DNA from: Gimesia algae
GTDB taxonomy: Bacteria > Planctomycetota > Planctomycetia > Planctomycetales > Planctomycetaceae
Assembly: GCF_007746795.1 (NCBI RefSeq)
Contig: NZ_CP036343.1
Span: 5,865,357-5,929,356, forward strand
Length of the DNA: 64,000 bases
Direction: 5' to 3'
Part shown: positions 13,877 to 58,769 of the stretch, piece by piece
Layout of the letters: every line of letters starts with the position of its first letter
How positions within the stretch are numbered: the stretch's first letter is position 1
Notes under the pieces: generated by a model
The model's database searches: none
The model's input: only the letters and a program-made list of their open reading frames with translations
What the model was told of the DNA's origin: nothing
Made by a program: the position numbers and the translations under genes

Positions 13877-13968
13877 TAGACTGTGTCCGGTTTTACTGTT
13901 GCGTCTCCTGGAACAATGGAACCAATTGCAATAGTACGAAAGACACGATGTTAAAATGTGATGCACTC
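13877..13968 (+). repeat. 92-nt dispersed repeat, copy 1
   Basis: The most diverged of five copies. It begins TAGACTGTGTCCGGTTTTAC and ends near AATGTGATGCACTC, exactly 92 nt. The inner arms are degenerate (TTGCGTCTC against AAGACACGA). It lies 65 nt upstream of the 849-residue zinc-ribbon/hydrolase gene, in the same orientation. Confidence 0.8.
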
Positions 13969-14033
13969 TGGAGAATCAGATTGCATCTGTTTCAACAGCT
14001 TATTCTTCCATCTGATACGCCAGAGATGCTTCG

Positions 14034-16583
14034 ATGATCGATCCACTCCTAATCAAATGCCCACACTGTGTGGCCTCATTTAAAATTAAAAACAAGTCCG
14101 CATTTGGGAAAAAAGTGAAATGCCCCAAATGCGAGACCCCCTTCGTCATTCCGGAGCCAGTCTCCATTAAGTCAAGTTCGAGCAAAAAGAAGTCGAAGCC
14201 ATCGACTCTCGCTGAGGAATTCTTTGGAGAAGAAAGTGAATCATCATTCAGCGTGCCCGACGATGAATTTGATAACTGGGAAGCAGATCTAAGTAACGGT
14301 CCAGCGGATAATAGATCACCCCCTAAGAAAAATGTGAGGCCTCCAGCGATTCCCCCTAAAATACGATCAAGGACTGGATCGACTCAATCGAATCGATTCC
14401 TGCCTTTAATCCTAGTCGCAGGAGGCATCTTGCTGCTCTTTTTCACATTCATCCTGATCAAGGTCTTCGTTCCACGGACCACTCATCCAGCTGCAATGCG
14501 CGATCAACTGGCGGGAGGAGCAGATCTAAGTGATGCGAAGAAATTGAATCTCCCTGCCGTTGACCATCTTGAAACAAATTGGCCTCACCAGGGAGTGCAA
14601 GGCGATCAGGTGTTTCAGGAACGTCAAACGGCATCCTCGGGCAAAGTGTATGATCTCGTCTGCCCTGGTGAAAAAACGGCTACGGGCAGTACTCAGAAAT
14701 TCAAGGTTTATCTCCCCCCCAACATTCCTGAGAATACACAGGTCCCCTGCGTTCTGGTTCCTCCGGCAGGGGCAACTCTCTTAACGGGTATGGATATCGA
14801 ACTGAACGATGTCTCTCTTGATTCGGAACATGAACCCTATATCAAAGCAGGTTTTGCTGTCGTCACATTTTCCATTGATGGATATATTGGCGACATCGAA
14901 AATACAACCAACGATCAGTTTGCAGCGGCTCATATGAAGTTTCGTAAAAGCCAGGCTGGAATCATCAATTGTATCAATGCGTTTCTCCAGGCTGAAGAAA
15001 CGGTCCCGGGTATTGACCGCGATAATATTTTTATCGCAGGACATAGTTCCGCTGGTACACTTTCTTTACTTTTCGCTGAGTACTTCACCAACGCATTTCA
15101 AGATAATTCGCATCAACTCAAAGGTTGCCTGGCCTACGCCCCGGCAGTTGATCCGCGGGGGTTTTTCAAGGAAAACCTGCCCATCTTCAAAAGCATCATT
15201 CCAGATGTAGAAGAATTTATTCGTGTATCGGCTCCCGTCAATTATACCGAAAAGATTAATTGTCCGGTGTTCTTATTTCACTCAGTCGGCGACCAGGTCA
15301 CTTCCTATTCGAATACAAAGATATTTGCTGCACAATTACAGAAACAAGGGATCGATGTCAAATTCGTTAGCAGTAGTGGCTTCGACCATTACCAGACAAT
15401 GATTGACGAAGGAATTCCAAACGGGATCAGGTGGATCAAAGAAAGAATTACCGGACAGCAAAGACCCCAGCCTCGATCGACGCCTGATTCAACACCCAAT
15501 ACGACCCCGAAGGCGTTACCTGATTCCATGGTAGAGATCAATAAAAAAATCAGAGAACAAAGAGAGGCATCTCGCGCCAGAATCGAAAAAATGAAAATGC
15601 GATTTCAGAATCAGGAATTTAAGGACAAACCTGATCCCAGTATTCCTCAACAGAGGGTCATCTTTAAAGTCACAGGATATAACGATTTTTATACAAATGC
15701 GATGAAGAGCCAACCTGCTTTCTGGGCGAAATCCATTGAAGATAAAATGGAGATCAGTTTAGAACGACTTGTAGCGGGATATATCAAGAAATCAGTTCGA
15801 CTCGATCTGCAGAATCAGTTACTCAGCTTCAAGTTTACCGGTAAACTTCCTGAAGACTTGCCGCAGCTCTGCGCACAAGACAACATGGCCAATGCAGTCA
15901 CCCTGGATCGAGATCCGCCCGTCATCAAAAAAATAAACAATGACCCAAATTCGTCCGACAGCAGCCAGGGGCTATTGTTCAAAATCTTTTCCGCAAACGG
16001 CATTAGATTTGATAAAAATAATGCTGCCCGGATTGCAGAGATCAAATTGAAGCAACTGGATCGCTATATTCCTGGCTCACTAAAAATCAATTATGAAGAT
16101 AAATGGGTCTTTATCAGAGCCACTGGTGACAAAGAAATTAACTATCAGGTGAATAACATTTTATCGGGTGTGGGGATTTCTATCGACTCAACGCCGACTC
16201 GTCTCACTCCCGAAAATATAACGAAATACGAGAATTACGGCGCAGCGACAGCGAATCCTTCCAAGATGTCAAACCCAGCGTCAACAGCAAGTCCAAGTAA
16301 GCCCAGTCAGAAATATGTCATACTCTACGGAGTTTACGGCGGTGATGACGCTAAAGAATCTGTGCAGCGCAGCCTGAAGGGATTTGTGTGGGTCGATCAG
16401 AAATCGATCCAGTTCAATCCTCATAAGAAAGAAATCTCGTTCACGAACAGAAGCCCCGTTGACATGGGGGCGCTGGAGCGTGCTTTGACAAGAAATAAAT
16501 TCTATCAACTTGCAATCTCACAGGAAGCGCTGCCTGAAAAACCAACCGAGCCTGAGACAAAAGAAAAAGCCGCAATCAATTAG
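14034..16583 (+). CDS. Membrane protein: zinc ribbon - TM - alpha/beta hydrolase - three ferredoxin-fold-like repeats
   Basis: 849 residues. The N-terminus has a CPHC...CPKC zinc ribbon (C9, C12, C30, C33) of the type common in planctomycete membrane proteins. A charged/Ser-rich linker leads to one membrane span at about 121-145. Residues about 200-470 form a prolyl-oligopeptidase/dienelactone-hydrolase-like domain with nucleophile GHSSAG (Ser about 337), an Asp in HSVGDQVT and a His in GFDHYQT. After a Pro/Thr linker, residues 541-835 hold three repeats with an HMA-like beta-alpha-beta-beta pattern (VIFKVTGYND, LLFKIFSANG, YVILYGVYGG), none with the CxxC of metal-binding HMA domains. The predicted topology puts the zinc ribbon inside and the hydrolase outside. 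Its TAG stop is the first three bases of repeat copy 2. Confidence 0.85.
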   Translation: MIDPLLIKCPHCVASFKIKNKSAFGKKVKCPKCETPFVIPEPVSIKSSSSKKKSKPSTLAEEFFGEESESSFSVPDDEFDNWEADLSNGPADNRSPPKKNVRPPAIPPKIRSRTGSTQSNRFLPLILVAGGILLLFFTFILIKVFVPRTTHPAAMRDQLAGGADLSDAKKLNLPAVDHLETNWPHQGVQGDQVFQERQTASSGKVYDLVCPGEKTATGSTQKFKVYLPPNIPENTQVPCVLVPPAGATLLTGMDIELNDVSLDSEHEPYIKAGFAVVTFSIDGYIGDIENTTNDQFAAAHMKFRKSQAGIINCINAFLQAEETVPGIDRDNIFIAGHSSAGTLSLLFAEYFTNAFQDNSHQLKGCLAYAPAVDPRGFFKENLPIFKSIIPDVEEFIRVSAPVNYTEKINCPVFLFHSVGDQVTSYSNTKIFAAQLQKQGIDVKFVSSSGFDHYQTMIDEGIPNGIRWIKERITGQQRPQPRSTPDSTPNTTPKALPDSMVEINKKIREQREASRARIEKMKMRFQNQEFKDKPDPSIPQQRVIFKVTGYNDFYTNAMKSQPAFWAKSIEDKMEISLERLVAGYIKKSVRLDLQNQLLSFKFTGKLPEDLPQLCAQDNMANAVTLDRDPPVIKKINNDPNSSDSSQGLLFKIFSANGIRFDKNNAARIAEIKLKQLDRYIPGSLKINYEDKWVFIRATGDKEINYQVNNILSGVGISIDSTPTRLTPENITKYENYGAATANPSKMSNPASTASPSKPSQKYVILYGVYGGDDAKESVQRSLKGFVWVDQKSIQFNPHKKEISFTNRSPVDMGALERALTRNKFYQLAISQEALPEKPTEPETKEKAAIN

Positions 16584-16672
16584 ATTGTGTGCAGTTTTTC
16601 TGTAGCGTCTCCAGGATCATTGAAACCAGGTATTTCAGCCTGAGAGACGCTCTGGTCAAATGCGAAACGCGC
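16581..16672 (+). repeat. 92-nt dispersed repeat, copy 2
   Basis: Begins TAGATTGTGTGCAG and is exactly 92 nt. The arms TAGCGTCTC and GAGACGCT are intact. Its first three bases are the stop codon of the preceding gene. It lies between two convergent genes. Confidence 0.85.
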
Positions 16673-16695
16673 CAGCCCCCGGCTACGCACGCGAT

Positions 16696-17967: not shown

Positions 17968-18347
17968 TGATTTTCTTCTGATTGAGATAACAGGAAGACT
18001 CTACACAGCACAGCTGCAACACGGAAAACCACTTTACTTCAGAGTAAAATAAACAGATCAGAAAAGCAACTGGATTCCATAATGCTTACTTTGTCAGGAG
18101 TTCCAACTGTTCGGAACAGAGGAACCAACTGATTTCGTACAATTTCAACGGAGGAGAACCTTCTTTTGAATCGGCATCGGCTTTATAATACTGCCAGACC
18201 TCTCACATGATTTTTGTACGCCGGACTTCCCTCAGGAAACATCCAGCAGGTTATCCACCGCAAAAGCAGACTCGCAAATATCTGACCCTTGATTTGATCT
18301 CATCTTGAACACCGGGTCTGACACTCTGCAGGTTCTGCCGTTTTTTT
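17968..18347. other. Intergenic region upstream of glnE
   Basis: 380 nt between divergent genes. A perfect -10 hexamer TATAAT lies at 18184-18189 facing glnE, but no good -35 is at 16-18 nt from it. The resulting leader would be about 150 nt. No other signal is recognised. Confidence 0.4.
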
Positions 18348-22046: not shown

Positions 22047-22306
22047 TCCTCAAACCTCCTGTTCCGCTCATCAGTTGCAGTAAACTGCCGAAAACAGCTT
22101 ACAAACAATCATCATTTTGATATCACTTTTATCATTTTGAGCGCACACTTTACGTAACCCGAAATAATGCCATTTTCATTAAGAATAATATTAACAGTCA
22201 CTTACAGCAATTCCTGTTTAATTGGCACAATCGATGCTTTTTAACATCCTTCAGAAGCGGTCGTGAGATTCAAACAAGACTGTAATTTCAAAGAAGGAAT
22301 GGAGAG
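22047..22306. other. Intergenic region between glnE and the Gly/His/Tyr-rich protein
   Basis: 260 nt, AT-rich, containing a direct repeat ATCATTTTGA (two copies 21 nt apart) and the sigma-54-like promoter. No terminator with a T-run is visible after glnE. Confidence 0.5.
22222..22238 (+). promoter_or_regulatory. Sigma-54-like promoter
   Basis: TTGGCACAATCGATGCT has the -24 GG and -12 GC exactly 10 nt apart and matches the TTGGCAC half site fully, with one mismatch in the TTGC half. It lies about 70 nt before the small secreted protein gene. A sigma-54 promoter would also need an enhancer-bound activator; ATCATTTTGA occurs twice at about 22110 and 22131 upstream as a candidate site. Confidence 0.5.
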
Positions 22307-22621: not shown

Positions 22622-22654
22622 ATTGCATCTTAAGCAACTTGATCTCACAATCGA

Positions 22655-22746
22655 GAGCGCGTCACATTTAACCATAGCGTCTCTCAATCTAAAATGCTCG
22701 GTCCATTGGGACCTGGGAACGCTACAGTAAAACTGGACACAGTCTA
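22655..22746 (-). repeat. 92-nt dispersed repeat, copy 3
   Basis: Reverse orientation, exactly 92 nt; read on the minus strand it starts TAGACTGTGTCCAGTTTTAC. It contains a perfect small hairpin GGTCC-CAAT-GGACC inside the longer arm. It sits between the small secreted protein gene and the terminator at 22843. Confidence 0.9.
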
Positions 22747-22842
22747 ATGGCCACCGTCGATCCGATGAGTCTGTCCAGGAGACGCGTGTGGAAACGGGAA
22801 CCGGGTGAATTCTCACTTTCCTGTTATTTAAAAGTGGCAAAG

Positions 22843-27002: not shown

Positions 27003-30000
27003 TTACAGCAGCGGTCCTTCCCAGTTGGTAAAGGCGTCGTCCATGGCTTCCTGCTCCCCGTTAAAGTCATCTGCCAGATCCCACTCCTGCTCATCGTCAG
27101 CATGGGCAAAGACCAGGTGACGGTCATCGGTATCAGAATCCATTAGAGTGTCTTCAAATTCGGACGATGAATACAGGTCTTCGAACAGGCTTGTATCCAG
27201 TTCGAATTCGTCAGCAACCTGTGGATCTGAGCTGACCGATGGCTGGAAGACATCGAAGGTGACAGTCTGCTGAATTCCAGCATTCGAATCTTCTTCTTCA
27301 GTCGATTTAATGACTGCCGGAGCAACCAGACTCATTGAAGATTGTTCAATAAACGTCTGGGCAGCTCCCTGACTTTGAATCAGTACCGGTTCAGCAATCT
27401 CTTCAGCGGGTACATTGTTAGTACCAAAGATCGGAGCTGCACCACCACTGGCTGAACCTGACTGAGCGTTGGCATAAGCTTCCAGCAGCATCTGCACGTT
27501 CACATCGGAAATTGTCTTGCGGATACCAGGATCAAGCGTATCGCCCATCAGATCATCCGCGTATGCAGGGTCATCGACATGCAGACCAGTTGAATCCAAA
27601 GCCACAGTAAAGTCAGAACCGACAAATACCAGATTGCCACCCGATTCTTCAACCAGGCTTCCAAAACCACTGAAGTATCGTGTAAATCCAAGTACGTGTC
27701 CAATTTCGTGTAACAATACCGTATACAGGTCATAGGCACTGCCTGAGGGCAGATCGGTCACATCAACGTGCCAGCCTAAGCCATTGGCATCGTTATCAAT
27801 TACGACACGACCTCCGACTGGAACACCATCTACACTGTATTCCGTAGTCAGTCCTGACCCCAGTTGAGCCGTTCCGAAGTCATGTACGACGACTTGCACA
27901 TCCAGGTCTTCAACGCCCAGAGCTGTTTCCCAGGTATCGACGGCAGCCTCGATCACCTGATCAATGCTGTCATCCCCACTGGCCACTTCCAGCTGATTTC
28001 CAACCCATTTCTGACCGAAGTTTACAGGGAAGGTGACTTCAGTATTACCACTCTTCTTCTTGCCGTAATTACCAGCCAGAGAAATCAGGTCGCGATAATC
28101 CACTTTACCACTCTTATCAAAGTCGAGAGCAGAAGCGTAAGGTGAAGTCGCGTTGAATACTTTTTGGTTATAAGCAGAAGTAAAGAAGATCAGATCACGA
28201 TAATCAATCTTATCATTGTCGTCGATGTCATAGATCACCGGATAGAGATCGGTCTCGGGAAGCGCTCCCACGTTAACAGAGACTTCGCCAATTCCCGAGA
28301 TATCAATTATGGCATTCTGAATATCAAGCCCTAATTTCTGTGGCTCAATCGTCAGGTCTGTGGGATCGACCTCAACCTGATCACCTGCGAGAGACTCGAA
28401 TTTAATGCGAGCCAGCAGGGCATAACCGGTTCCACCGACGTATGCTTTCGATGTGCTACCCCCCAGATTGCGGACCACACCGGCGGCATCATCAATCACA
28501 ACCGTTTTGTTGAAGGTAAAGTTGGAACCAAATTCCACCGAGGTCGCGGTGAAGTAGGCTGTGTTATAGGCAATGTCAGTCAAGACATCGCTGATACCAA
28601 ATCCGCTGGCAGTATCCACCCAGACTTCAACCCAGAAGGAATCCCATTCCTGAAGCCAGTCTTCGTTACCTGGTAATGCTGCTGTATGACCATTGCTGGA
28701 AACACCCGTTTTCTGTTTGACCACCGAAATCTGAATACTGGTATTTTCATCTACAAGTGAAGCATCACCGCCCGTTCCAAACAGCGGAGCCCCTTCATCA
28801 GGATTAGGATCAACCAGGATGTTTTGAACTTCCACAGCACCGATATCGACATGCGGAGTACCATCGGTTACTTGTGATTTAGGGCGCTCATAACCTCTCT
28901 GGTCAACAGCAGGTGCATTAAAAGATAAATCACTATCTTTGCCGGCGTCAAGCGCCAGGCTGCCAAACAGCAGTGAATGGGTTAGAGTAGGGCCACCATT
29001 ATCCAGCAGGTCACCCAGTTTAGGATCAATGGGTGCCTCCTGAGTACCAACAAGATTTCCATACATTGAATCATCGGTCAGCCCGGTTGCAGTGCCGATA
29101 TCACCAATCAGGTTATTAAAGCTGCTTGTGGTATCATAAGCACCACCCAGATCGGGATTTGCAAAGAAGCCACTATTTTCTGCAACAATCGTGTTGCTCA
29201 GTGTGGCAAAGGCACCGGTATCATTCGAAATCCCCCCACCAGACTGATCTGCCGTATTCTTTGTCAACGTGTTGTTCAGCACACTCAATGAGCCGGTATT
29301 GAAGATGGCACCACCACGTGATCCTGCATGATTTCCAGAGAACGTGACGTTGGTCGAAGTGATTGTACCTTCGTTAAAGATGGCACCACCACGGCTTCCC
29401 GCGTCATTCGCATAGAACAGAGACTGCGAAACATCAAAACTGGCATCGCTGGCAACATAGACGGCTCCTGCACGTCCATCCGAGGAGTTCTCGGAGAAGG
29501 TTGTACGACTGACTGTTGCTGTTTCAGTGTATTGATAAATAGCTCCCCCCTGGAAACCGGCATGGTTATTCAGGAACTGAGCATTAGTAATATCGAGCTG
29601 CCCGAGACTGACGATCGCCCCCCCCAGGAAGGAAGCAGAGTTATCCTGGAAGATGATCTGATTCAGATTTGTATCACCCTCGGCAAAAATGGCACCACCG
29701 TCATCAGCATCACCGTTGATCAATGACATACCTGACAGATTCAGTGTCACATCACTTTGGGTATGGAAAATACGATCCAGGTTAGCTGCATCAATGATGG
29801 TTAATCCGGCCCCCTCACCAACAATTGTCATATCCCTCTTAATATCATAGTCACCAGTGCCATTATTATTTTCATTGATGCCTGCAATAGACATAACATA
29901 ATCATCTTGGTTCAGGATGATTGTATGATAGCCTCCTATGTTATTATTTATAATTTGAATCGCTTCACGAAGTGAAAGATCATCCCGGTCGTAACCCGCA

Positions 30001-33000
30001 TCCGTGTCATCTACATCTAATTCATCATCGGTCGTAGTCACGACCAGACCCTGGCCCGCTTCGATAATTGTACCCACAGCTGTATCATCACTTAACGGAA
30101 CAGCCTCTGCAGTGGCTGTTACTTCAGCTGAAATAATTTTCAGAGTAAAGTATTCAGTCAGTTCAGCATCAGTCATACCATCAACATCATCGAGAATATC
30201 GATTTCGATGAACGCCATACGCTCATCTTCGTCTATCGATATGGATCCTGAATCCGCCGTATAATCAGATCCTGCCAAAGCTCCGCTTCCACCGATGCCA
30301 TCAGATGTCTCATAATTAACAGTCACTCCCCCCGTTGGTGCAGGGTGCGATAATGTGACTGCAAACCGCATTTTAACTGGCCCTGTCCCATCTTCAGGTT
30401 CCACCATTGTCGCATCGCTTATCGATAAGAAGGCCTCGTCGTCATTCGTGATTGTTCCTATAGCCTGTATATCAACATCATTGATGGTGATACTTACGTT
30501 TCCGCTTCCGCTCACTGGTTTCACTTCTATATTCTGAAGCTCGACCCTGAAGACTTCATCTTCTTCAATCAAAGAATCGCCAACGATTTCCACAGATACC
30601 ACCACTTCCGTATCGCCGGGAAGGAATGTGATGTTTTGAGTCGATATGCTGAAATCATCCCCATCTGCATATGCATCGCCTAGAGTTTCAGATGAATCTG
30701 TAATCAGTGAAACAAAATCAACAGAGACAGACTCTGTTAGCGGATGCGAGAGCGTTACGGTAAAGTCCATGTTAGTAATGGTGCCTTGTGGACCTTCATC
30801 AACAGATATATCCTCTTTAATGCTCAGAATTGCTTCGTCATTCTGAATCGTACCTGTACCATGGGGTGTACCAATCACAGCACCGCTTGCATTATACAGG
30901 TTCACAGTGAATGTTTCATGAAATTCAGGGACGGTATCACCGTATACCAATACCTCAATGACCTGAGTCGTTTCCCCTGCTACGAAAGTGACAGTGCCGG
31001 TTGTAAATTGATAATCGACCCCCGCTGTCGCCGATATGTTGGAAGTTTCAAAGTCAACGGTGACGTCATCCACATTACTGTTCGATAATGAAACGATAAA
31101 TTTCATTACGGTTCCGTCAGTTATATCAGTTTCGAGCTGGCTGACATCGGAAATACTGATGGTCGGCGTGACAATTTCAAAGGCACCAATGTCGCTGGTC
31201 GTATCGGTGGGCCGTGTGGCACCACGCTGGTCGAGGGAGATGCCATCAGTATTGTCCCCGGCATCAATGGCCCGGCTGCCTGCGAGTAATGCATGCGTCT
31301 CAGTTGGGCCACCATTGTCCAGGAGAGCAGTGAGGGCGGGATCAATGCGTTGAGAATTGCTTCCCACGATATCACCATTGAAACCATCAATGAATCCTGC
31401 TGCTGAACCGCTGGTTCCAATCAGGTTATACCCCAGAGAGGTGAAAGTCCCTGCCAGGTCAAATCCACCGAGCAGAGCATTATTGCCGGCCACGATCGTA
31501 TTCTTAACGCTTACACTGGCGGTATCAGCGACAGAATAAATACCGCCACCTGTACCTTCAGTAGAGTTTTCATAAACCGTGGTATTGTTGATAGTCATCT
31601 CGCCGGTGTTATGAATCGCCCCCCCTTCTTTGCCGGCTTCGTTTCCGGAGAAGGTGACATTGGAGATATCGACGGTGTCTTCATTCAATAATCCACCGCC
31701 ACGGGTACCAGCGAAGTTATGCGAAATCGTGCTGTTGGAAATCGTCACGTGACCGACGACGTCCACAGTCGGAGGCAGGCCAGTAACCGTAATTGTATAC
31801 TGCCCCAGGCTCCCGTAATCTGAGTACCCCGTTCCCAGAACGTCTCCCTCACCTGTTCCTTCGATAGACACGTAGTACGTACCAGCTGCCAGTCCGGTGA
31901 ATGACGCATTGAGAGCACCAATAGGATTGCTCGTTTGAATCTGAGTGCCGCTGGAATCGTACAATGTGGCAAGAATATCGAGGTTGGGGCTCTCAAAGAA
32001 TGGATCAATGATGGCATCGCCACCAGTGGTTGTGAACTGGAAAAAGTCCACATCTGTGTTTCGCTCGATAATTCCGGAAGCTGTGCCGTTGATGAGACTT
32101 GACGCAGTGCCAATGCTGCTCCCGTAATCATCGACGCGATAACTAAATCCGTTCTGAGTGGTGATGATATTCAGATCGTCCTCGCTGTTGTCGGCGTCGG
32201 TATACTCACCTTGACTCCACTGGACCAGATCCTGGGAATAACCAGCTCCCATGATCGGAGCCCAGCCCGTTGGACCGCTGCCATGACCGAAGTAGTATTC
32301 CTCGGTTGACGTACCATCATGGAATAGCCCCAGTGTGTGTCCTACTTCATGGCTGGCTGCTTCGGCAACACCAATCAGACCTGTGTTGAACACGTAGGTT
32401 GGTGTGTCGAGGTTGTCGTTGAACGAACCAACATACGCGACCCCCCCAGCATTGCTGTACCAGGTGTTCTCACCAATGACAACACGCACTCCCCAGCGTG
32501 TATCTGAGCCATCAGTCCTGATCAGATCGCTGACTGGCGGCTCTGCGGTTGTCACATTGACATTAAACGGAGCAAAGTCCTCAGCAACCCGTAACCAGGT
32601 GCGTTGAATGACTTCGATTTCGGCAAGGCTGAATGACCCGACATTGCCATCGGTATCATAAGCAGGTGTGACAATGGTACCGAATGCGGTATTCCACTGT
32701 GTGCCTGTTGTCGTGTGACCATCGAAATCGAGATAAATCGTGAAGTTAGATCCGGGCAGCGAACTCAGGTTGAATGTATCGCTGACTGGGAATGGAGGAG
32801 CTTCGCTTAACAAGGCAATTTCTGAGTCACCGTTATTGTATTTAGGAATAGAGTGTGCTTCATACTCTTCTACTACCACGACCTCACCCTGATACTGAGC
32901 TCCCGTGGAAGAAGATGCGTTCCCTTCACCATTCCCGACAGCCACTTCATCCGAAATGAAGACACCACCACCGGCAACCGTTGCGGTATTGCCGTCGATT

Positions 33001-42000: not shown

Positions 42001-44027
42001 GTTCCAAAGCCTGCAGCTTCAAGTGCAGCATCAATACTGGTAATCATAGCCGCACTGGAGTTCACGATTGTGATCGGTGCCGTCGAGGTACTTCCCAGGG
42101 ACAAGATAAACTGCTGGCCGACTGGCAGATTGACATAATCAAATTCCAACAGTTGTTGCTCGTTCAGAGTCGCCGTTCCCGCCCGCTGCTCAGTAATTGT
42201 GATATCATAATTCAAGCCATTGGCATTTGGGATAATCTGATCGATATTAATATAAGCCAGTGGGTTCCCCGGGTCATCAACGACTGTGACTTCAAACCCG
42301 ACGCCGGTAAGTTCAACTGTCACAAACTTAAAATCAGCGGGCATAGACGGATACAGATTCGCTGCCAGATCATTCAAAGCATCTTCCACTGCACTAGCAT
42401 CATCGTCCCAGTTGAGAGTCGTCGACTGTCCCAGGAAGAACAAGGTATAGGTGCCAAAGGTTGGTACATTGTCAAACGTCAGAACCTGGACTTCACTTGC
42501 CCGCTGATAAAAAAGATCCTGAATAGAATCCTGAAATATTGTCACAGTCGGGTTATCAAACGTTAAATCGGCGTTTACCACTTCTAACGGGTTGATATTC
42601 TGGTGGGCCAGATCGTTCACAAATTCAATTTCGTACCCGTCTGTGAAATTTCCGTTGACCTGAATATCATCGACTTCGATGTCGGAGTCCAAGGCAACCA
42701 GGAACGCTTTGACCTGAGCAGCCGTCGCTGTGTGAGCGATATCATCGGTTGTGTAAGAATTTCCCCTGTTATCCGTATATTGCAGCTGAAAAAATCCGCC
42801 AATGGCTGATCCCGCGAAGCTGACTACCTGGACTTCATTCCTCGGCGCGGCAAAGTCAATTCTGTCAGTAGGACCGCCGGGCACACCGGGATTAGCGGGT
42901 ACACCGGGAGAAGCACCCGTTGGAACCGGATTGGTGGTTGACGGTGTGAAGAAAATACCGTGACCTGTGTTGCCGGAAATCAGGTTATCGCCGATTTCAC
43001 CGCTCAGGTCGCCGTCAGTCTGATCGAAGACAATCCCGTGTCCGCTGTTGGATGTGATCGAGTTTCCGGTAATCGAGACAAACTGATCGACATTATTCAG
43101 ATTGAGGCTGACACCAGCACCGGCGGTATTCCCGGTGATGACATTCGAATGAATGAACAACTCGGTCAGTAATGCAGCACCTTCGGCGGCGGTATCATCG
43201 ACGGTGATACTCACACCTTGAATACTGTTGTTATTGGTCAACCGCAGTTCTTCAGCTTCCGAATCCACAATGTTGACGCTCACACCATCATTACCTGATG
43301 TGCCGGCAATGGTGTTATCAGCCAGTGTGGTATTACGCAGATTCGATTCATCGGCAACATCGATGGAAACACCATCGATGTTAGAACGTCTGATCGAAGT
43401 TTCATCAATGATCGTATTACTCATTGCCACGGTGACACCGGCTCCGGACTGCCCGGACAAGGTCGAATCAACGATATTGAATTCATTGATGACAATATCT
43501 GTCAGATCAATGTTAAATGCATTTCCCACCGCGCCGGTGATGGTGGAACTGTCCACGGCGATCGAGATAGATTCGGCAAGCAGACCATCCAGGTCAATGT
43601 CAATTCCCCGTCCAGCAGCAGCATTGACAGTGACATTATCAAACAGAATGGAGAACGGAACATCTTCTGTATGATCATCATTCTGGAATTGTAAGCCATC
43701 CAAGTCGATCGAAATACCAGCTCCCGACGTGGCATTGACGGTCAGGTCTTCAAAGATGATCGAATCGTAATTGGAAAAACCATCGTCATCCGGGTCCAGC
43801 ACTGAGTTATCAATCGTCATACCCAGCCCGGCAGTCAGCTGATTGATGATGAGCGACGTCAGAAGAGTTCGATCTTCGAGTTGCTCAATCGCGATGCGGC
43901 GTTGAACCTTCTGGCGGGCGGATGAAGGAACACTTCGAAGCTGAAGTCTGCGACGAGGATTTAAAGTCGCCTTACGGCTTTTTTCGAACGCAACTCGCAT
44001 CGACTCAACCCAAGATGTCAGTAACAT
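27003..44027 (-). CDS. Giant LEPR-XLL multidomain surface protein with two metallopeptidase modules and dockerin
   Basis: About 5674 residues. I choose ATG 44027 because TGGGAGA lies 7 nt upstream; an ATG 34 codons earlier has no site. Order: LEPR-XLL motif LEDRTLLTS (50-58); beta-helix (60-390); six or so 90-residue repeats of the NEVQ...GGDFTISL type (390-940); a second beta-helix (940-1640); five Ig-like NFSEDVTGVD repeats (1840-2420); three CSLREA plus Pmp-like beta-helix blocks rich in DGGGIYN/GGAIFN; a metallopeptidase with HEVGHTLGLFHD (His 3893, 3897, 3903), Met-turn PIMGAGY and a PPC domain (about 3736-4090), inside the helix; three Calx-beta domains (window 30060-31165); a fourth CSLREA helix; a cohesin-like domain (about 5096-5228); dockerin (5262-5319); a second peptidase with HEIGHVLGFTR (5440-5450); and an acidic tail. 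Probably a secreted adhesin or polymer-degrading surface protein. Confidence 0.9.
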   Translation of the reverse strand: MLLTSWVESMRVAFEKSRKATLNPRRRLQLRSVPSSARQKVQRRIAIEQLEDRTLLTSLIINQLTAGLGMTIDNSVLDPDDDGFSNYDSIIFEDLTVNATSGAGISIDLDGLQFQNDDHTEDVPFSILFDNVTVNAAAGRGIDIDLDGLLAESISIAVDSSTITGAVGNAFNIDLTDIVINEFNIVDSTLSGQSGAGVTVAMSNTIIDETSIRRSNIDGVSIDVADESNLRNTTLADNTIAGTSGNDGVSVNIVDSEAEELRLTNNNSIQGVSITVDDTAAEGAALLTELFIHSNVITGNTAGAGVSLNLNNVDQFVSITGNSITSNSGHGIVFDQTDGDLSGEIGDNLISGNTGHGIFFTPSTTNPVPTGASPGVPANPGVPGGPTDRIDFAAPRNEVQVVSFAGSAIGGFFQLQYTDNRGNSYTTDDIAHTATAAQVKAFLVALDSDIEVDDIQVNGNFTDGYEIEFVNDLAHQNINPLEVVNADLTFDNPTVTIFQDSIQDLFYQRASEVQVLTFDNVPTFGTYTLFFLGQSTTLNWDDDASAVEDALNDLAANLYPSMPADFKFVTVELTGVGFEVTVVDDPGNPLAYINIDQIIPNANGLNYDITITEQRAGTATLNEQQLLEFDYVNLPVGQQFILSLGSTSTAPITIVNSSAAMITSIDAALEAAGFGTTGTDFTVTGNFINGFVIEFTGDLEETNHALFQIALPPGTDITITASTTTQGSGRNEIQAIEFPAQPGGGDFTISLDTETTVPLAYDATAADVQLALEGLTNIGPGNVLVTKSSFGNSFIFLVEFVGSNSLRPADFENEPLGTLLTIDDDGLIAAVPTVTTVSEGTSLNEVQEVVVNGTPTAGDFKLSFDGVETTGVINFNDDAADILTQLNTIPVLNGNVLVRGDVTNGFEIEFIGELANTNPPQIAVTAVNLTGATLSVKTTTVGGYLRGISGNTITGNSGAGIEIDLEMYTSFYGDITGNTISSNDTQGINLNAADPTTLVSIDFSLSVEDNTLDANQGAAIAVSMEDTATGDVSITGNTITNTRNDLNAATPYTGDAIYVDLYGTDVHFEAFNQLRDLIIDGNYIGIDADSTAGLGNAGNGIGIHIEESTIIDYTQISNNVIMNNTGDGVHFHREDDARVGRADVDPIVGEERAVKIYSNMISGNSDGIDILAQNGSLTTTDFEIKDNVLSSNARDGIKMHAEADALIFADIINNEINTNSLNGIESTSYSSNYAGTDKRDVAGTWMQNTISNNSQHGIDISGRIGNHEMLFIGLNGVDPVTGADRGNLISGNGRDGIQIAATVDRIDGRVRIANNQILSNSTGGIELTGAGLRSSIDNNLIASNTGKGIDINSDSQVSFIRGNIITENTLDGLEILSANRVSPSEVGNNFTEFGPQQPTTSVTAIGNFIDNNGGRGVDLQTEDRANSDFIFGDGTEAGANHIVSNGLEGFYVVTTASVGQDQDAASTATLDATGSVVDSDADMVLQINTNYIQDNGVNSNFTTTGLVLRIGTMNSIWGGGTFWSSTQRPSSDNGGAAVGDEDSANAANGRSNVMVTGNVFEGNYGEDVYAESFVSTVDPNITSDVWTSPASNPNFRVLSSYERDPLARLNLFFEENTGNGLDVTNFGAYYDTAEPVFKSRLNNYTAPVPDGDFTSATRRRNAQRIASRAGYDPTIEPSPNGPPDSGNVIGASIDPVSGRILIQADDVSLLANGYAIEITRSLRATDGYDANPIYGLFTIADIDYNANTFTLVSTEGYDLTGYSTTGFWSTNDNTASFVFDGVGVSTFRVNQTYFNNSFDDYTSNFFNSVILGGGVGEIDFAWDFWNPDVDTFLAPFVQTFMTADISVTTPDPLNHTFPGDFIVSFTEDVSDLAVTLSDFALYHNNALVNDFYSLANLEQLTPRTFRLNIDTLLGGLADGEYELRLNADGSITDIKYSDSYNTLLFGDVERFTIDTAAPTVQIENVSPDPRSAAVGDLIVNFSEDVTGVDLGDFTLVGPNDSVNLAATPATLTQVTGSQFVLDLSKVTNLSGTYTLSINSTASSFIVDSAGNALTTDSDSVEDVSWVNDTQAPTATFDPFETTDGTVDIEFDNDVTGLDVDDFKLFRGGDDITDTIEDMSVVVKTIVSVVSIAGSDSAYKVTIHADYLSANGEYRLVFVGEGSGVTDDAGNEAVSSSDVKWNQGTDFTAPIAGIQDVIPDPETSLVYDVMINFSEDVTGVDILDFELWIDKGNGPEEIDISGLMLTEENSSTYTIDLSTVTNVDGEYTLKLIAAGSGIVDLSSNALVSGASETWRIGGPKLGASIQGIEDDEVIHTNAGVVSINFEDVPVLDNVDPNPVAVDVADVTISDFRLTLNGQAIDLAAAGVTVTAVNPVIGGTTTTASLFTLDLTQVTQATGSYVLTLVAEGSEIIDINDNPLLVNASKAWTNSSTIDLTGIDPTTVDDAVDTNVGDGIVADENGNITLRAAIQEANALAGSNVIQLAAGTYLLDIAGIDEDQSATGDLDIRDNLTIRGQGVGVTIIDGGALDRIFQIFAGVTLNLENLTIQNGRLTGSDDGAGIRNSGTTTLTNVEVTENVAEDGGGGINNTGLMVIVDSTISNNTAGGSGGGLRNTGTLQISRSTISENTTERDGGAVFNAGIGTVTVSNSTFSGNSSDRSGGAIRNTATLNATNNTMTLNDAGTAGGAVANSGTATMQNNLVIANTATTNSELDGSFTSLGGNLTGVIGTATGFGFGDIINVADPTPVLDLNLADNGGPTLTHALLLGSIAIDTGVNTNTATLEQRGSSRILGTNVDIGAVEYGTFFVNSTEDTVDINPGDGIVADENGNISLRAAIMEANALAGDSVIILGAGEYNLSLLGSGENSSETGDLDITDTTGSLTILGAGSGQTTINAAGLTDERDRVFDIFSGADLTLQGVMITGGKVIGDSGGGIRNVGTLTLINSLVDGNAAEVDVDDTTAVVNGGGILNGQLGLQGTLTLTNSDVTNNSAVDGGGIFNNDQSVITIVDSEISGNTASSDGGGLFNDLQATVDILRSSISGNTSTEDGGGIYNNDLASVTITDSKVNNNMADQGGGIFNEEAASLTITRTTVSGNTASQDGGGIYNDEGVVSLNTVSLLLNTAAFDGGGLYNGSAGEVTITTGMFDDNSAGRDGGAIANFGISLSLSGTIVRDSNAVRNGGGLFNDQEEGTVSLINASFINNEADSGGAIYNQELGVIDLDLSDLLNNTASENGGGIFNTADATITVRRTTVDGNVASNGAGIYNEDIAQLNLINSTVSNNVATGDGGGLFNNSLVLANIENATISGNAAINGAGIFNGDEGTMEITNATITNNAGTTGGGIINEDGGLVSVVNTIIAGNSATGTGVDVAGEYNSIGFNLIGDDTDSTGFIHSTDKVDVASAGLGNLQDNGGATFTHELLGGSLARDAGNNFYAPTNDQRGFARLFDGDGDGTLVVDIGAFESGYIVTSFKDSVDAVPGDGVSVDSQGRSTLRAAIIEANAHAGADTILLGSGTYTLSLFGLGENGALLGDLDITDDLTIIGAGSERTFIDADFLDRIFHIFTDVNVTIRGVTLVNGSVTRVEDGGAILNFGNLILEDVTIENGLANRGGALFNNGIVTMTDSLFENNTAIADGGAIFNSDYGTITIDLSTISGNDAENGGGIYNSTGGTLAVNDTTIDGNTATVAGGGVFISDEVAVGNGEGNASSSTGAQYQGEVVVVEEYEAHSIPKYNNGDSEIALLSEAPPFPVSDTFNLSSLPGSNFTIYLDFDGHTTTGTQWNTAFGTIVTPAYDTDGNVGSFSLAEIEVIQRTWLRVAEDFAPFNVNVTTAEPPVSDLIRTDGSDTRWGVRVVIGENTWYSNAGGVAYVGSFNDNLDTPTYVFNTGLIGVAEAASHEVGHTLGLFHDGTSTEEYYFGHGSGPTGWAPIMGAGYSQDLVQWSQGEYTDADNSEDDLNIITTQNGFSYRVDDYGSSIGTASSLINGTASGIIERNTDVDFFQFTTTGGDAIIDPFFESPNLDILATLYDSSGTQIQTSNPIGALNASFTGLAAGTYYVSIEGTGEGDVLGTGYSDYGSLGQYTITVTGLPPTVDVVGHVTISNSTISHNFAGTRGGGLLNEDTVDISNVTFSGNEAGKEGGAIHNTGEMTINNTTVYENSTEGTGGGIYSVADTASVSVKNTIVAGNNALLGGFDLAGTFTSLGYNLIGTSGSAAGFIDGFNGDIVGSNSQRIDPALTALLDNGGPTETHALLAGSRAIDAGDNTDGISLDQRGATRPTDTTSDIGAFEIVTPTISISDVSQLETDITDGTVMKFIVSLSNSNVDDVTVDFETSNISATAGVDYQFTTGTVTFVAGETTQVIEVLVYGDTVPEFHETFTVNLYNASGAVIGTPHGTGTIQNDEAILSIKEDISVDEGPQGTITNMDFTVTLSHPLTESVSVDFVSLITDSSETLGDAYADGDDFSISTQNITFLPGDTEVVVSVEIVGDSLIEEDEVFRVELQNIEVKPVSGSGNVSITINDVDIQAIGTITNDDEAFLSISDATMVEPEDGTGPVKMRFAVTLSHPAPTGGVTVNYETSDGIGGSGALAGSDYTADSGSISIDEDERMAFIEIDILDDVDGMTDAELTEYFTLKIISAEVTATAEAVPLSDDTAVGTIIEAGQGLVVTTTDDELDVDDTDAGYDRDDLSLREAIQIINNNIGGYHTIILNQDDYVMSIAGINENNNGTGDYDIKRDMTIVGEGAGLTIIDAANLDRIFHTQSDVTLNLSGMSLINGDADDGGAIFAEGDTNLNQIIFQDNSASFLGGAIVSLGQLDITNAQFLNNHAGFQGGAIYQYTETATVSRTTFSENSSDGRAGAVYVASDASFDVSQSLFYANDAGSRGGAIFNEGTITSTNVTFSGNHAGSRGGAIFNTGSLSVLNNTLTKNTADQSGGGISNDTGAFATLSNTIVAENSGFFANPDLGGAYDTTSSFNNLIGDIGTATGLTDDSMYGNLVGTQEAPIDPKLGDLLDNGGPTLTHSLLFGSLALDAGKDSDLSFNAPAVDQRGYERPKSQVTDGTPHVDIGAVEVQNILVDPNPDEGAPLFGTGGDASLVDENTSIQISVVKQKTGVSSNGHTAALPGNEDWLQEWDSFWVEVWVDTASGFGISDVLTDIAYNTAYFTATSVEFGSNFTFNKTVVIDDAAGVVRNLGGSTSKAYVGGTGYALLARIKFESLAGDQVEVDPTDLTIEPQKLGLDIQNAIIDISGIGEVSVNVGALPETDLYPVIYDIDDNDKIDYRDLIFFTSAYNQKVFNATSPYASALDFDKSGKVDYRDLISLAGNYGKKKSGNTEVTFPVNFGQKWVGNQLEVASGDDSIDQVIEAAVDTWETALGVEDLDVQVVVHDFGTAQLGSGLTTEYSVDGVPVGGRVVIDNDANGLGWHVDVTDLPSGSAYDLYTVLLHEIGHVLGFTRYFSGFGSLVEESGGNLVFVGSDFTVALDSTGLHVDDPAYADDLMGDTLDPGIRKTISDVNVQMLLEAYANAQSGSASGGAAPIFGTNNVPAEEIAEPVLIQSQGAAQTFIEQSSMSLVAPAVIKSTEEEDSNAGIQQTVTFDVFQPSVSSDPQVADEFELDTSLFEDLYSSSEFEDTLMDSDTDDRHLVFAHADDEQEWDLADDFNGEQEAMDDAFTNWEGPLL

Positions 44028-44865
44028 CTGCTGTCTCCCATAAACTCTAATTTGCCATGGCATTTTACTAAAACAGGAGCAGGAAATCACATCCCGCTTC
44101 GCCTGTTTCAGAACAAACTTGAATGCCATTCTGTTGTATTGTTAGTTGTCAATTTAATGATTCGGTTCAAGGAATTCTGCCTGCAGCATACACTTAACGG
44201 AACATTAGAGCACTACCCCTGATCCGTAATACTTGACTGTTTACAGAACTCCAGCCTTTGATGCTAAAAACTACTCTGAACCGATGTCAAAGAAATTTGC
44301 ATAAATTAGGTAATTTATAACTGGTGTATTCCACTTGTAACAATCATGCCACCACTTTGAGGATTCCCATCTCATCTAGAACTTGCCTGGAACAAGCCCA
44401 CCTCAAATACAAAAATATATCCCAACGCAACGCGAAATTCTTACATAAGTGACGCATGGCAATCTAAAAACTAACGATGTTTCGCTCCGTCCCGACGGCA
44501 TTTCTAATTATTTTTTCAACTCATAACTACAATATTTCAATATACTTATGACACTCCCCGTCCAGGAGACTGATTAAAATGGACTGATTTCCAGGACAAA
44601 TCACGCTATACAATTGCATCATCTGCTCCGAAAAATCGTACTGTTTTTTCAAGATGTAACGTTTTTAATGGTCTTCGGGGCAGAACCAAGCCGATCAATT
44701 ATGACAGCGGGTTATCTACAGAGGCCCGGTTACTGCTGTACTTACGAACAAAAATGCTCTGAGATCACAAATTGTGCTTTGTCGGAGAGATTAGTTTTTA
44801 ATTAGCATCTTTCGATCGGCCGAATCAGTGAGATTCTGCAGAGATCGAAATGGAGAGATTGAGCT
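44028..44865. other. Long AT-rich divergent intergenic region
   Basis: 838 nt between the giant gene and an outer-membrane protein gene. It must contain both promoters and is more AT-rich than its flanks. A 63-codon plus-strand frame at 44614-44805 has no ribosome site or family and I do not call it. I see no convincing RNA gene or repeat. Confidence 0.5.
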
Positions 44866-49243: not shown

Positions 49244-49631
49244 AGAAGCCGACTTTCTCTTTCAGCAAAGGCATGGATCAGGAAGGAGGCTGCCGCGTCT
49301 CCGAAAACCATTGGTTTTCGAAATCCCGGCAGGTAAAGCGCACAACTAGATCGCATCACATTTAACCATAGCGTCTCACAATCTATTCTACTCGGTCCAA
49401 ATGGCCCTGGAGACGCGACAGTAAAACTGGACACAGTCTAAAGTACCCAATAACAAAAGCCCGGGCAGCCAGTCCGACAATTATAAAGAACGTTAACGAA
49501 TACGTTCTACCTTAGCCTGATCGAGAGGGAAATCAAGTCCAGATCTATTGAATTGCAGAACTCAGAACGACGCATTCACTCCTACGTCAGTTCTGTTGAG
49601 AACCCGTGCAGAAAAATTGAATCAGGAGAAA
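49244..49631. other. Intergenic region between guaA and the PVC haem-protein gene
   Basis: 388 nt. Besides repeat copy 4 I see no terminator with a T-run after guaA and no credible open frame. Confidence 0.5.
49349..49440 (-). repeat. 92-nt dispersed repeat, copy 4
   Basis: Exactly 92 nt in reverse orientation; on the minus strand it starts TAGACTGTGTCCAGTTTTAC with arms GCGTCTC and GAGACGC intact. It lies 106 nt upstream of the haem-protein gene start, between two same-direction genes. Confidence 0.9.
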
Positions 49632-52711: not shown

Positions 52712-52763
52712 TCAAACAGAAGGATCTCAAACAGAAGTTCGTTTGAAACAAATCAGAATATTT

Positions 52764-52805
52764 CAGCAACGGCATACTCCCTCAGGGTATGCCGTTGCTG
52801 TTTTT
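52764..52805 (+). terminator. Rho-independent terminator
   Basis: CAGCAACGGCATAC / GTATGCCGTTGCTG form a perfect 14-bp stem with a 9-nt loop, followed by five T. Confidence 0.93.
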
Positions 52806-52878
52806 ACGTTTATGATATTTTACGTTCGCCACGGCGTCTGATACCCGTTTAATCTCATCTTTTGTTTTGGATCTGCTG

Positions 52879-53649: not shown

Positions 53650-53752
53650 TCGGGGGAACTGCCCTGACTCCTCTGGAACACATAAACACAAGTTGATACA
53701 ATTGTCTCGAACCACTTGAAGTCTTATGAGGTTTTGCAGGAGAGAGAACGGC

Positions 53753-55117: not shown

Positions 55118-55314
55118 TGTATCTGGCCTGAATCCGATCCACTGGGGCTGTACAGCCGATTAAAACTTGAATCACTGTCTGCGATAACGTTAGAATGGCA
55201 GATAGTGCTCTTTCGAGAATACTCCCTCCATTGAAGTGAGGCACAGCGTATACCACAGTGTCTCGACAGGCTTCAGCCAGATCATTACTTGAACACCGTA
55301 TAAGAAACCAGCGC

Positions 55315-58300
55315 ATGAAGCAGTTTATTCGTATCACATCTCTGGTTTTACTCTTGATCGGTTTGAGTCGTTTTTCGAACTCTGCGGAAAAAGCAAACGA
55401 AACAGCGGCTGCAGTCCCCCGCTTTACGAGTGAACAACTCGAATTTTTTGAAAAATCGATTCGCCCTTTACTCTCCGAACATTGTTACGAATGCCACAGC
55501 AGCCAGGCCAAACGTCTGGAAGGTGGTTTGAGACTGGATGCCCGTTCGCTGCTGTTGAAGGGAGGCGACTCAGGACCGGCGGCGGAACTGAAACAACCAC
55601 ACGACAGTCTGTTGCTGCAGGCGGTCCGCTATGAATCGTATGAAATGCCACCCGATACACGACTGCAGCCCGAGCAGATCGCGGCGTTATCCCGCTGGGT
55701 TGAAATGGGACTTCCCTGGCCTGACGAAAAAACGCCCGCCACGTCTGCAGCGGCGAAAGTATTCGATCTGCAAAAACGCAAACAGGAACACTGGGCCTGG
55801 CAGCCTGTGAAGGATCTGAAACCTCCCACAGTCCAACAGAAAAACTGGTCGGCGCATCCCGTCGATCAATTCATCCTGGCGCAACTGGAAGAAAAGCAGC
55901 TGCACCCGAGTCAGCCAGCAGACAAAAGAACGGTTCTCCGTCGTCTCTCTTTCGATCTGACTGGACTGCCTCCCACTCCCGAGCAGATTCACAATTACCT
56001 TGCGGATTCGTCTCCGAATGCGACGGAGAAAGTCGTCGACCGGTTACTGGCTTCTCCCCGGTTTGGCGAACGCTGGGCACGACACTGGCTCGACCTGATG
56101 CGTTATGCAGAATCCCGAGGTCACGAGTTCGATAACGATGCCCCCAATGCCCATCAGTATCGAGACTATGTCATTCGCGCCTTCAACGCTGACCTGCCCT
56201 ATGATCAGTTTGTCACAGAACACATTGCCGGCGATCTCCTTGAGCAGCCTCGTCTCAATCCTGAATCACAGTTTGATGAATCCGTGCTGGCCACTGCTTT
56301 CTGGTACCTCGGTGAATGGGTGCACTCGCCTGTCGATATTCGCAAAGACGAAACAGACCGCTTCGATAACGCGATTGACGTGATGACCAAATCGTTTCTG
56401 GGCTTGACGGTTTCGTGTGCCCGATGCCACGATCATAAATTCGATGCGATCTCCACAAAAGATTACTACGCTCTGTACGGTTATCTCCAAAGCAGTAATT
56501 ACCACCAGGTCAGATTCGAATCAAAGGCACACAATCAGAAAATTGCGAAACAGGTTGAACAACTCGATCAACGGCAACAGGAACTTCTCAAAGCAAAAAT
56601 CAAACCGGCCTTCAGCGAAGGCATTCAAAACTTCTCGAAATACTACTGGGAAGCCAAAGCGCTGGCAGAGAAAGATCCTGCAGAAAAAACAGCCACCCTG
56701 GAAGCGGAACTGCAACAGCAGGCGGTTCAGGGAACACTCTCGCCTCAAATTCTGAAAAGCTGGGTCCGCTTTCTAAAATCAAACCCGGATCAGGGTCAGC
56801 TGATGTCAGTCCGTTTTATGCTGGACTCAGGCAATGAGTCAACATTGACGCCCCCTTCACCGTTAGCAAAAAATCAATCCGACAAAACAGATCAACGCGC
56901 CATCATCGATTATTCGCAGTCTGCTCCTGAAGAATTCATTACGGATGGATTTATCTTTGGCATGGCACCTCGCTCGCAAGGAACGCTGGTCCTGGATTCG
57001 TCTGGTACGCTTCCGGTGCTACTTGCACAAACCGAAGGTGCCGCCCGGCGTGATCCACTCTGGAACGATCTGGTTGACACGAAATCGCCTCAACTGAACC
57101 AGAAAAACAAACTGCGGTCCTACCCCCGCGCCGGTAGAACACTCCGTACTCCCACATTCGAAGTCCAGGGAGCAGTCAATTATCGCGTGAAAGGAGACTG
57201 CTGGGTTTACGCCTGCGTCGATTCCCATCGACTGCTGTTTGGTCCTTTGCATGGTTCCACACTCAAAAAAGTGCAAGCCAGCCCCCATGGCAAGCCGGTC
57301 TGGATCACGCACGATCTGTCCCGCTACAAAGGACATCGCGTCCATCTCGAATTCACTCCCATCGATCAGTCCCCCCTGGAAGTGTATCAGGTCAGACAGG
57401 GAGCGTCTTTTCCTGAACCTGACCTGACGACTGTGAGTCTAGCGGGACCCCAGGTGCCGCTAGACTTGGAAACCGCTTTTGACGAATTTGTTTCCGGTAA
57501 GTCTGATCCAACATCTCAGTCAGTGGCTCTGGTCAACTGGGTGCTGACACATCCTGATCTGTTCTCTGAACCTCAAAGTCCGGCACGACAAGATCTCAAA
57601 GCAGGAATCGATGACTGGCAGCAGCAGCGGAATGCGTTGAAAAAGTCGGTCCGGACCGCATCCCAGACCGCGATGGCAATCATGGATGGCAGCGCCGAAA
57701 ATGATCATGTCCTGATTCGAGGCAGCCATCAGAATACAGGTCCCCTGGTGGAACGTCGTTTCCTTGAAGCGCTGGGGGGCGCTGCACCCGGGAGCAAAGC
57801 AGGCAGCGGTCGCCTGGAACTGGCTGCAGCAATCAATGACCCTGCGAATCCATTAACGCATCGTGTGATCATAAATCGGATCTGGGCTCATCTGTTCGGT
57901 CGTGGCATCGTGCCCAGTGTTGATAATTTCGGCGTGCTAGGCGAACGTCCTTCGCATCCTGAACTCCTCGATTTCCTGGCGTTGAAGTTTGTTAAAGAGG
58001 GTCGCTCTCTTAAACAGATGATTAAATATCTGGTGCTGACTCAGACCTATCAGCAGTCAAGCAGTACCACTCAGGATATCGCAGACATTGATCCCGATAA
58101 CATTTTGCTTTATAAAATGCCTTTAAAACGCCTGGAAGGGGAAGCGATCCGAGATGCGCTGCTGCAGATTTCGGGACGTCTTAACAAAACCCTGTATGGA
58201 CCTTCGATCCCCGTTCATCTGACAAAATTCATGGATGGCCGAGGCAAACCTCCCGTCAACGGTCCTCTGGATGGCGCAGGCAGACGATCCATTTATATTC

Positions 58301-58680
58301 AGGTCCGCCGTAATTTTCTCTCACCCATGATGCTGGCTTACGATACCCCCAGCCCTTTCAGCACGATGGGCCGCCGCAATGTTTCTAATGTTCCCGCACA
58401 GGCGCTGATCATGATGAATGATCCGTTTGTACTTCAGCAGGCGGAACTATGGGGTAAGCGTGTTTTAACCCAATCCGGTTTGCAGACCACTGAGGACCGG
58501 ATTCGCTGGATGTATGAATCAGCATTAGGCCGACTCCCCACGACGAAAGAACTGCAAACTGCGCAAGAATTTATTGAACAGCAGGCGAAAGTTAATCCTT
58601 CCGATTCAGATCAAGCGAGAATCTGGTCTGAACTGGGCCATGTGATCTTCAATCTCAAAGAGTTTATCTACATTTTTTAG
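55315..58680 (+). CDS. PSD1 protein: planctomycete cytochrome c plus DUF1549 and DUF1553
   Basis: 1121 residues from ATG 55315; an upstream GTG adds 19 residues in front of the signal peptide (ITSLVLLLIGLSRF). The N-terminal planctomycete-cytochrome domain has C57-YE-C60-H61 and the following GGLRLDARSLLLKGGDSGPA. DUF1549 carries SFDLTGLPPTPEQI and RWARHWLDLMRYAESRGHEFDND, plus a second haem-like CARCHDHKFDAI motif. The central part has a carbohydrate-binding-like sandwich. DUF1553 has NRIWAHLFGRGIVPSVDNFG near residue 852 and ends in FNLKEFIYIF. Proteins like this are proposed to be periplasmic electron-transfer partners in polysaccharide breakdown. The TAG stop codon is formed by repeat copy 5. 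Confidence 0.92.
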   Translation: MKQFIRITSLVLLLIGLSRFSNSAEKANETAAAVPRFTSEQLEFFEKSIRPLLSEHCYECHSSQAKRLEGGLRLDARSLLLKGGDSGPAAELKQPHDSLLLQAVRYESYEMPPDTRLQPEQIAALSRWVEMGLPWPDEKTPATSAAAKVFDLQKRKQEHWAWQPVKDLKPPTVQQKNWSAHPVDQFILAQLEEKQLHPSQPADKRTVLRRLSFDLTGLPPTPEQIHNYLADSSPNATEKVVDRLLASPRFGERWARHWLDLMRYAESRGHEFDNDAPNAHQYRDYVIRAFNADLPYDQFVTEHIAGDLLEQPRLNPESQFDESVLATAFWYLGEWVHSPVDIRKDETDRFDNAIDVMTKSFLGLTVSCARCHDHKFDAISTKDYYALYGYLQSSNYHQVRFESKAHNQKIAKQVEQLDQRQQELLKAKIKPAFSEGIQNFSKYYWEAKALAEKDPAEKTATLEAELQQQAVQGTLSPQILKSWVRFLKSNPDQGQLMSVRFMLDSGNESTLTPPSPLAKNQSDKTDQRAIIDYSQSAPEEFITDGFIFGMAPRSQGTLVLDSSGTLPVLLAQTEGAARRDPLWNDLVDTKSPQLNQKNKLRSYPRAGRTLRTPTFEVQGAVNYRVKGDCWVYACVDSHRLLFGPLHGSTLKKVQASPHGKPVWITHDLSRYKGHRVHLEFTPIDQSPLEVYQVRQGASFPEPDLTTVSLAGPQVPLDLETAFDEFVSGKSDPTSQSVALVNWVLTHPDLFSEPQSPARQDLKAGIDDWQQQRNALKKSVRTASQTAMAIMDGSAENDHVLIRGSHQNTGPLVERRFLEALGGAAPGSKAGSGRLELAAAINDPANPLTHRVIINRIWAHLFGRGIVPSVDNFGVLGERPSHPELLDFLALKFVKEGRSLKQMIKYLVLTQTYQQSSSTTQDIADIDPDNILLYKMPLKRLEGEAIRDALLQISGRLNKTLYGPSIPVHLTKFMDGRGKPPVNGPLDGAGRRSIYIQVRRNFLSPMMLAYDTPSPFSTMGRRNVSNVPAQALIMMNDPFVLQQAELWGKRVLTQSGLQTTEDRIRWMYESALGRLPTTKELQTAQEFIEQQAKVNPSDSDQARIWSELGHVIFNLKEFIYIF

Positions 58681-58769
58681 ACTGTGTCCAGTTTTGCTGT
58701 AGCGTCTCCAGGCCCATTTGGGTCGGGTATATTAGATTGACAGACGCTATGGTAAAATGTGAGGCGCTC
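58678..58769 (+). repeat. 92-nt dispersed repeat, copy 5
   Basis: Exactly 92 nt, starting TAGACTGTGTCCAGTTTTGC. Its first three bases are the stop codon of the PSD1 gene, and it ends 22 nt before the start of the next DUF1501 gene, so it sits inside an apparent operon. Arms TAGCGTCTC and CAGACGCTA (one mismatch), inner GGCCCA-TT-TGGGTC. Confidence 0.9.

Follow-up and report, generated by a model that had tools for sequence, protein, structure and literature searches.

A dispersed 92-nt repeat family of Gimesia algae as a probable non-autonomous transposon of IS630/Tc1-mariner type

The window examined here is a stretch of 64,000 nucleotides (nt) from the planctomycete Gimesia algae (NCBI RefSeq assembly GCF_007746795.1, contig NZ_CP036343.1, positions 5,865,357 to 5,929,356 of the forward strand), and it contains five dispersed copies of a repeat of 92 nt. 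An initial annotation, made from the sequence alone, had placed the copies at the coordinates and on the strands listed below, and this placement was borne out; the five align without gaps at a mean column identity of 86%. Each repeat is very probably a 90-bp non-autonomous transposon, or miniature inverted-repeat transposable element (MITE), of the IS630/Tc1-mariner type. A MITE-like element was among the readings already proposed, and it is the one favored by the high copy number of the family, a duplication of TA at YTAG targets, orthologous sites that lack the element, and a terminal repeat held in common with IS630-family elements. A known kind of mobile DNA thus accounts for an extensive repeat family in a planctomycete genus, and a likely autonomous relative can be named. 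The window copies, two of which begin exactly at the TAG that terminates the upstream open reading frame (ORF), are as follows:

13877..13968 (+): copy 1, the most diverged of the five; left TA at 13877-13878, 90-bp element at 13879-13968, right TA decayed (TGG next)
16581..16672 (+): copy 2; ORF 14034-16583 terminates in the left TAG, element at 16583-16672, CAG next
22655..22746 (-): copy 3; left flank TTAG, TCG next
49349..49440 (-): copy 4; both TA copies intact (TTAG ... CTAG)
58678..58769 (+): copy 5; ORF 55258-58680 terminates in the left TAG, CAG next

Copies, flanks and empty sites

The family is short, non-coding and widely dispersed. A covariance model built from the five window copies recovers at least 150 copies of the 90-bp element in the host genome. 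A complete count of the left-end 16-mer, GACTGTGTCCAGTTTT, in the 7,929,454 bases of that genome gives 111 occurrences, against 0 for its backward control, which excludes chance as the origin of the repeats. Copies were measured where the profile match started no later than position 6, reached at least position 86 and had 60 bases of flank available; with duplicates merged, the set comprises 175 host copies. The exact length of 92 nt is kept in 157 of these. Individual copies differ from the consensus by 1 to 24 changes, with a median of 6 to 7 of the 92 positions, and they look like a decaying mobile family. Some copies stand head to tail in tandem, for example at 5078040-5078315, and carry common variants; these may be local duplications and are given little weight here.

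The left flank of the host copies reads YTAG and the right flank CTAG (YTA/element/TAG). Among the 70 copies that lie closest to the model, the left TAG is preceded by C in 31, T in 36 and A in 3, and the three bases 3' of the element are T in 63/70, A in 66/70 and G in 68/70. The simplest parse is an element of 90 bp, with G as its first base and C as its last, flanked by a duplicated TA within a YTAG target. According to the initial annotation no target-site duplication was obvious. Within the window this is largely correct, as the right TA is intact only at 49349-49440, and its decay in the other four copies (to TGG, CAG, TCG and CAG) is the reason that no duplication could be seen there; across the family, the TA duplication is present.

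Sites without the element were found in related species. The predicted empty sites of five host insertions (14 joined sites built) were searched in the genus and aligned with relatives, and three of the five insertions (L058, L059, and L041) are empty in sister species, with a single TAG, TAA, CAG or CAA where the host has two TAGs. At L058 the host arrangement of TAG-element-TAG corresponds to GATTAG in genome G012 and to GACTAA in G008. The empty site of L059 reads ACATCAG in G008, AGATCAG in G006, and AGTTCAA in G012, and that of L041 is a single TCAG in both G012 and G008, the left flank being shortened in the latter. The element at L136 is absent from 5 of 8 aligned relatives, and apparent remnants are found in G012, G014, and G016, so that this insertion may predate the splits of those species. 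For the fifth insertion, L184, the sequence is too diverged between the host and its relatives for a call. Empty sites alone fit a duplication of TA or of TAG alike; the duplicated unit is read here as TA, a choice taken from the IS630 family and from the CTAA/TAT flanks of other TA-duplicating elements. Loci L370, L337, and L338, set beside L136, are apparently one insertion in four species with different leftover pieces in three of them, and afford a view of how such copies decay.

The distribution of the family follows the genus. In a set of 59 genomes (the host and 58 relatives, searched with stricter filters than above), covariance-model matches occur in all 17 genomes of the genus and in none of the 42 outside it. 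Copy number within the genus ranges from one per genome (G001, G005, G009, and G013) to at least 73 (G000, G008, and G012). No match to the family consensus was found in the plasmids and phages searched. A longer, coding element sharing the left 16-mer was sought among 20 places outside the covariance-model list (100 of the 111 places being compared) and none was found; those 20 places are ordinary or diverged copies, of which L011 is interrupted by a second repeat family (described below), L173 is truncated, and L176 is shortened at its right end. At L173, near position 984 (-), the 92-nt copy is broken off after about 27 bases and is followed by a long palindrome with AAAGGTGTCAGGAACCTTAA. 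Some DDE_Tnp_1 elements (L282, L284, and L288) and a duplicated Y1 locus (L226/L240) have similar GGTGTCAGG motifs at their flanks. No description of the 92-nt family was found in literature on repeats of planctomycetes and Gimesia or on IS630, as represented by titles and abstracts and mostly from non-subscription journals, and the repeat is regarded as a new family of a known kind of mobile element.

Structure and gene context of the repeat

The hairpin reported for the arms of the repeat is a real single-sequence fold in four window copies (z -1.9 to -4.5), though not in copy 1 (z -0.4). Such folds, together with the position of certain copies at stop codons, might suggest a conserved structured RNA or a transcription terminator maintained by selection. 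Indeed, the initial annotation had raised the possibilities of a processed RNA, a mobile 3'-end structure and selection on size or structure, and had described an inner hairpin that keeps pairing with different bases. Covariation was assessed over 148 distinct 92-nt sequences from the 175 measured copies, and it gives these suggestions no support. Double changes that keep a pair number 12, against 10.5±2.9 in shuffled alignments, and 174 of 500 shuffles reach 12. Pairing in the consensus stem stands at 91.4% of cells both in the copies and in the shuffles (173 of 500 reach the observed figure). The inner hairpin likewise finds no support as covariation. Single stem changes do preserve the pair more often than the spectrum of unpaired columns predicts (197 of 584, against 143 expected), an excess that may be due to the tolerance of G.T for transitions and to a different base make-up of the stem and that is not counted as selection. 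The constant length needs no selection either, given the small median distance of the copies from the consensus.

Gene context was counted for the 169 of 175 copies with 480 bases of flank. In 15 of these the element begins on the stop codon of an open frame 80 codons or more in length, a position that a YTAG target would permit. Orientation of the element toward gene 3' ends is not significantly biased (64 vs 50, p=0.22), which leaves the idea of a mobile 3'-end structure unsupported, and no Rfam family matches the window. A selected RNA or terminator is accordingly a highly improbable account of the family, and the candidate structured RNA is removed from consideration. The arms of the hairpin are imperfect terminal inverted repeats of about 25 bp, the left end of the family agreeing with the right at 15 of 25 ungapped positions.

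Terminal repeats and candidate transposases

The likely autonomous relatives are IS630-family elements of the genus. Matches to DDE_3 occur in 9 of the 17 genus genomes, and 30 of 31 matches were examined as loci with about 1.5 kb on either side. Two of these, L374 (in G016) and L375 (in G001), are apparently complete elements in sister species, each 1025 bp long, bounded by TA duplications within CTAG and containing two overlapping ORFs. The second ORF of L374 scores 145 bits against an NCBIfam IS630 cut-off of 100 and matches DDE_3 with E=1.8e-33; its first ORF encodes a helix-turn-helix protein whose IS630 match falls under the NCBIfam cut-off. The proteins of L375 are 98-99% identical to those of L374. 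The last 28 positions of the 92-nt family profile, up to the terminal TAG, match both ends of both elements (E 0.0003 to 0.003). In ungapped comparison the right end of the family is identical to each end of L375 at 23 of 25 positions and to each end of L374 at 22 of 25, while the two ends of either insertion sequence are identical to each other at 21 of 25. As a control, none of the 561 TAG sites of the window exceeds 16/25 except one family copy (24/25). Further IS630 relatives with matching ends, partial within the locus, are present in G001, G013, and G012. Pairs of DDE_3 matches 18,606 bases apart (outer coordinates) were observed in the same three genomes, at 6403579-6422185 in G001, 6773366-6791972 in G013, and 5842-24448 of contig C27 in G012, as if one mobile island were common to the three species.

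In the favored reading, an IS630-family transposase would recognize the imperfect terminal inverted repeats in trans, excise the element, and insert it into the TA of a YTAG with duplication of the TA, in cut-and-paste fashion. The net gain at each insertion would be 92 bp, comprising the 90-bp element and one TA. Because the element starts with G and finishes with C, insertion would re-create CTAG on its right and YTAG on its left, and further copies as well as other CTAG-seeking elements could then land adjacent. The matching transposase would since have been lost from the host genome.

Several observations weigh against an IS630-type origin. The left end of the family resembles the IS ends poorly (14-16/25). 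No matching ends were found within the loci examined around the host's two DDE_3 hits. Copy number and the presence of a relative are also out of step: G001 and G013, where an IS630 relative is present, carry one 92-nt copy each, and in G008, with no DDE_3 hit, the copies number at least 73. The fixed orientation of targets, described in the next section, is unexpected from a symmetric transposase. Since neither host DDE_3 hit shows matching ends within its locus, the family appears to be orphaned in the host, and for a decayed, orphan family an autonomous partner in the same genome is not required. The absence of a transposase near the window copies had been remarked upon earlier; it holds for the nine neighbouring ORFs and the searched part of a giant ORF, to which the search was confined. 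That ORF, at 27003-44129 (-), has 5708 residues and shows right-handed beta-helix stretches in the 4042 residues searched.

The closest published kinds are RUP, ISY100/IS630, and MITEPsy1. RUP of Streptococcus pneumoniae (107 bp, linked to IS630-Spn1) is, by description only, similar to the 92-nt family in being a non-coding repeat of about 100 bp with TA at the target; about 108 copies are reported, with ends similar to an IS630-family element (PMC2229807). The 92-nt family differs from it in having one close and one poor IS end and no matching IS found in the host. Among members of the IS630-Tc1-mariner family, ISY100 duplicates TA (PMC2170065), and IS630 is reported to prefer the TA of CTAG (Tenzen and Ohtsubo 1991, by its title as cited in PMC2170065). 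The TA duplication is also a feature of the 92-nt family, which unlike these elements is without a transposase gene. MITEPsy1 of Pseudomonas syringae is a short MITE of 100 nt that inserts at CTAG or YTAA (PMC3189936), and it differs in its 4-nt duplication and its proposed origin from the IS5-family ISPsy2. The REP elements with RAYT transposases, which are short palindromes, often provide TAG stop codons with their ends (PMC3733652). They differ from the 92-nt family in their size of 20-40 bp and their GTAG or CGTC tag, and no RAYT link was found for the family in the Y1 loci examined.

An origin from an IS5-group element, of which the 92-nt repeat would be a derived MITE, was also considered. 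Such an element, unlike an IS630 partner, is present in the host, in six near-identical copies of about 936 bp with flanks CTA/G...C/TA, and 2 of 5 compared copies sit in CTAG at the end of a 92-nt copy. Target and duplication agree with those of the 92-nt family. The likeness of the ends, however, is weak (scored with a position weight matrix against TAG sites, the right end has p=0.009 and the left end p=0.14), compared with the 22-23/25 identity to IS630 ends, and an IS5 source is considered unlikely. Two overlapping frames of the host copies (L292 and L294-L298) encode DUF4096 and DDE, and the TA is duplicated within CTAG; the L294 copy interrupts an ORF that, judged by eye, looks like a nucleotide pyrophosphatase. 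An IS701 element (DDE_5), with two identical host copies and a CTAG/CTAA target, was rejected as a source, its ends TACTACAGCGCCTG being without resemblance to the family.

Target orientation and a second repeat family

The targets of the 92-nt family appear to be used in a fixed orientation. Among the 106 of 175 host copies that have TA on both sides, the targets in the copies' own orientation are TTAG in 48, CTAA in 3, CTAG in 43, and other sequences in 12, and among the 70 closest copies TTAG and CTAA number 25 and 0. A search artefact is excluded, since the covariance model spans the left TAG itself, and the base preceding this TAG lies outside the model, as does the right flank. By comparison, 24 IS5-group copies of the genus, with the same YTAR target, occur in both orientations (3 vs 4). 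Entry into targets in a fixed orientation appears to be the sole unusual trait of an otherwise ordinary element.

An oriented target would fit a single-strand element (HUH, IS200/IS605 or REP/RAYT-like) inserted 3' of a YTAG tetranucleotide. In keeping with such an element, the better fold under DNA parameters belongs to the top rather than the bottom strand in 108 of 148 copies, and empty sites alone fit single-strand insertion as well as TA duplication. The right end, however, is an IS630 terminal repeat, and among the 30 of 53 genus Y1 transposase matches that were examined there is one truncated 92-nt copy nearby and nothing else. Single-strand insertion thus has very little to recommend it, and Y1/RAYT was rejected as a source on the same lack of linkage. 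Under an IS630-type origin the degenerate left end may explain the oriented targets. One tentative possibility is that unequal ends orient the insertion, each transposase-bound end reading its own half of the target, so that TTAG is entered one way only. The basis for such half-site reading is that the right-hand G is kept in 68 of the 70 closest copies and that the left end takes C or T about equally (31 and 36). It is consistent with the anatomy of the element that C next to the TA is demanded by the IS630-type right end, on its own strand, and not by the degenerate left end. With more than 100 insertions whose flanks are readable, such oriented use of asymmetric targets by a MITE with unequal ends provides a natural data set on half-site reading by transposon ends.

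A second repeat family of 110 bp, TAG-TGCTTTGTCAAGC...ATGACACTCCAC-TAG, shares the target of the 92-nt family. The host genome gives 33 matches to it, 15 of the 17 genomes of the genus have at least one, and it is often nested in or adjoins 92-nt copies (L008, L011, L017, L020, L024, L060, L139, L148, L168, and others). Its right end is identical at 20 of 26 positions to an end of the IS630-family element L391 (in G014) and at 19 of 26 to L380 (in G012), window TAG sites reaching at most 13/26 as a control. A single-sequence profile of this family gave no hit in the 30 DDE_3 loci, and the evidence linking it to IS630 is the ungapped identity of the ends. Partial hits are deleted or interrupted copies or lone ends, and nothing else. 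The nesting is reversed at L280 (contig C63 of G012), where a 92-nt copy lies within a copy of the second family, with CTGG on the left and CTAA on the right, so that target and duplication are ambiguous there. Across the loci examined, 21 of 30 flank sets of the second family have CTAG on both sides.

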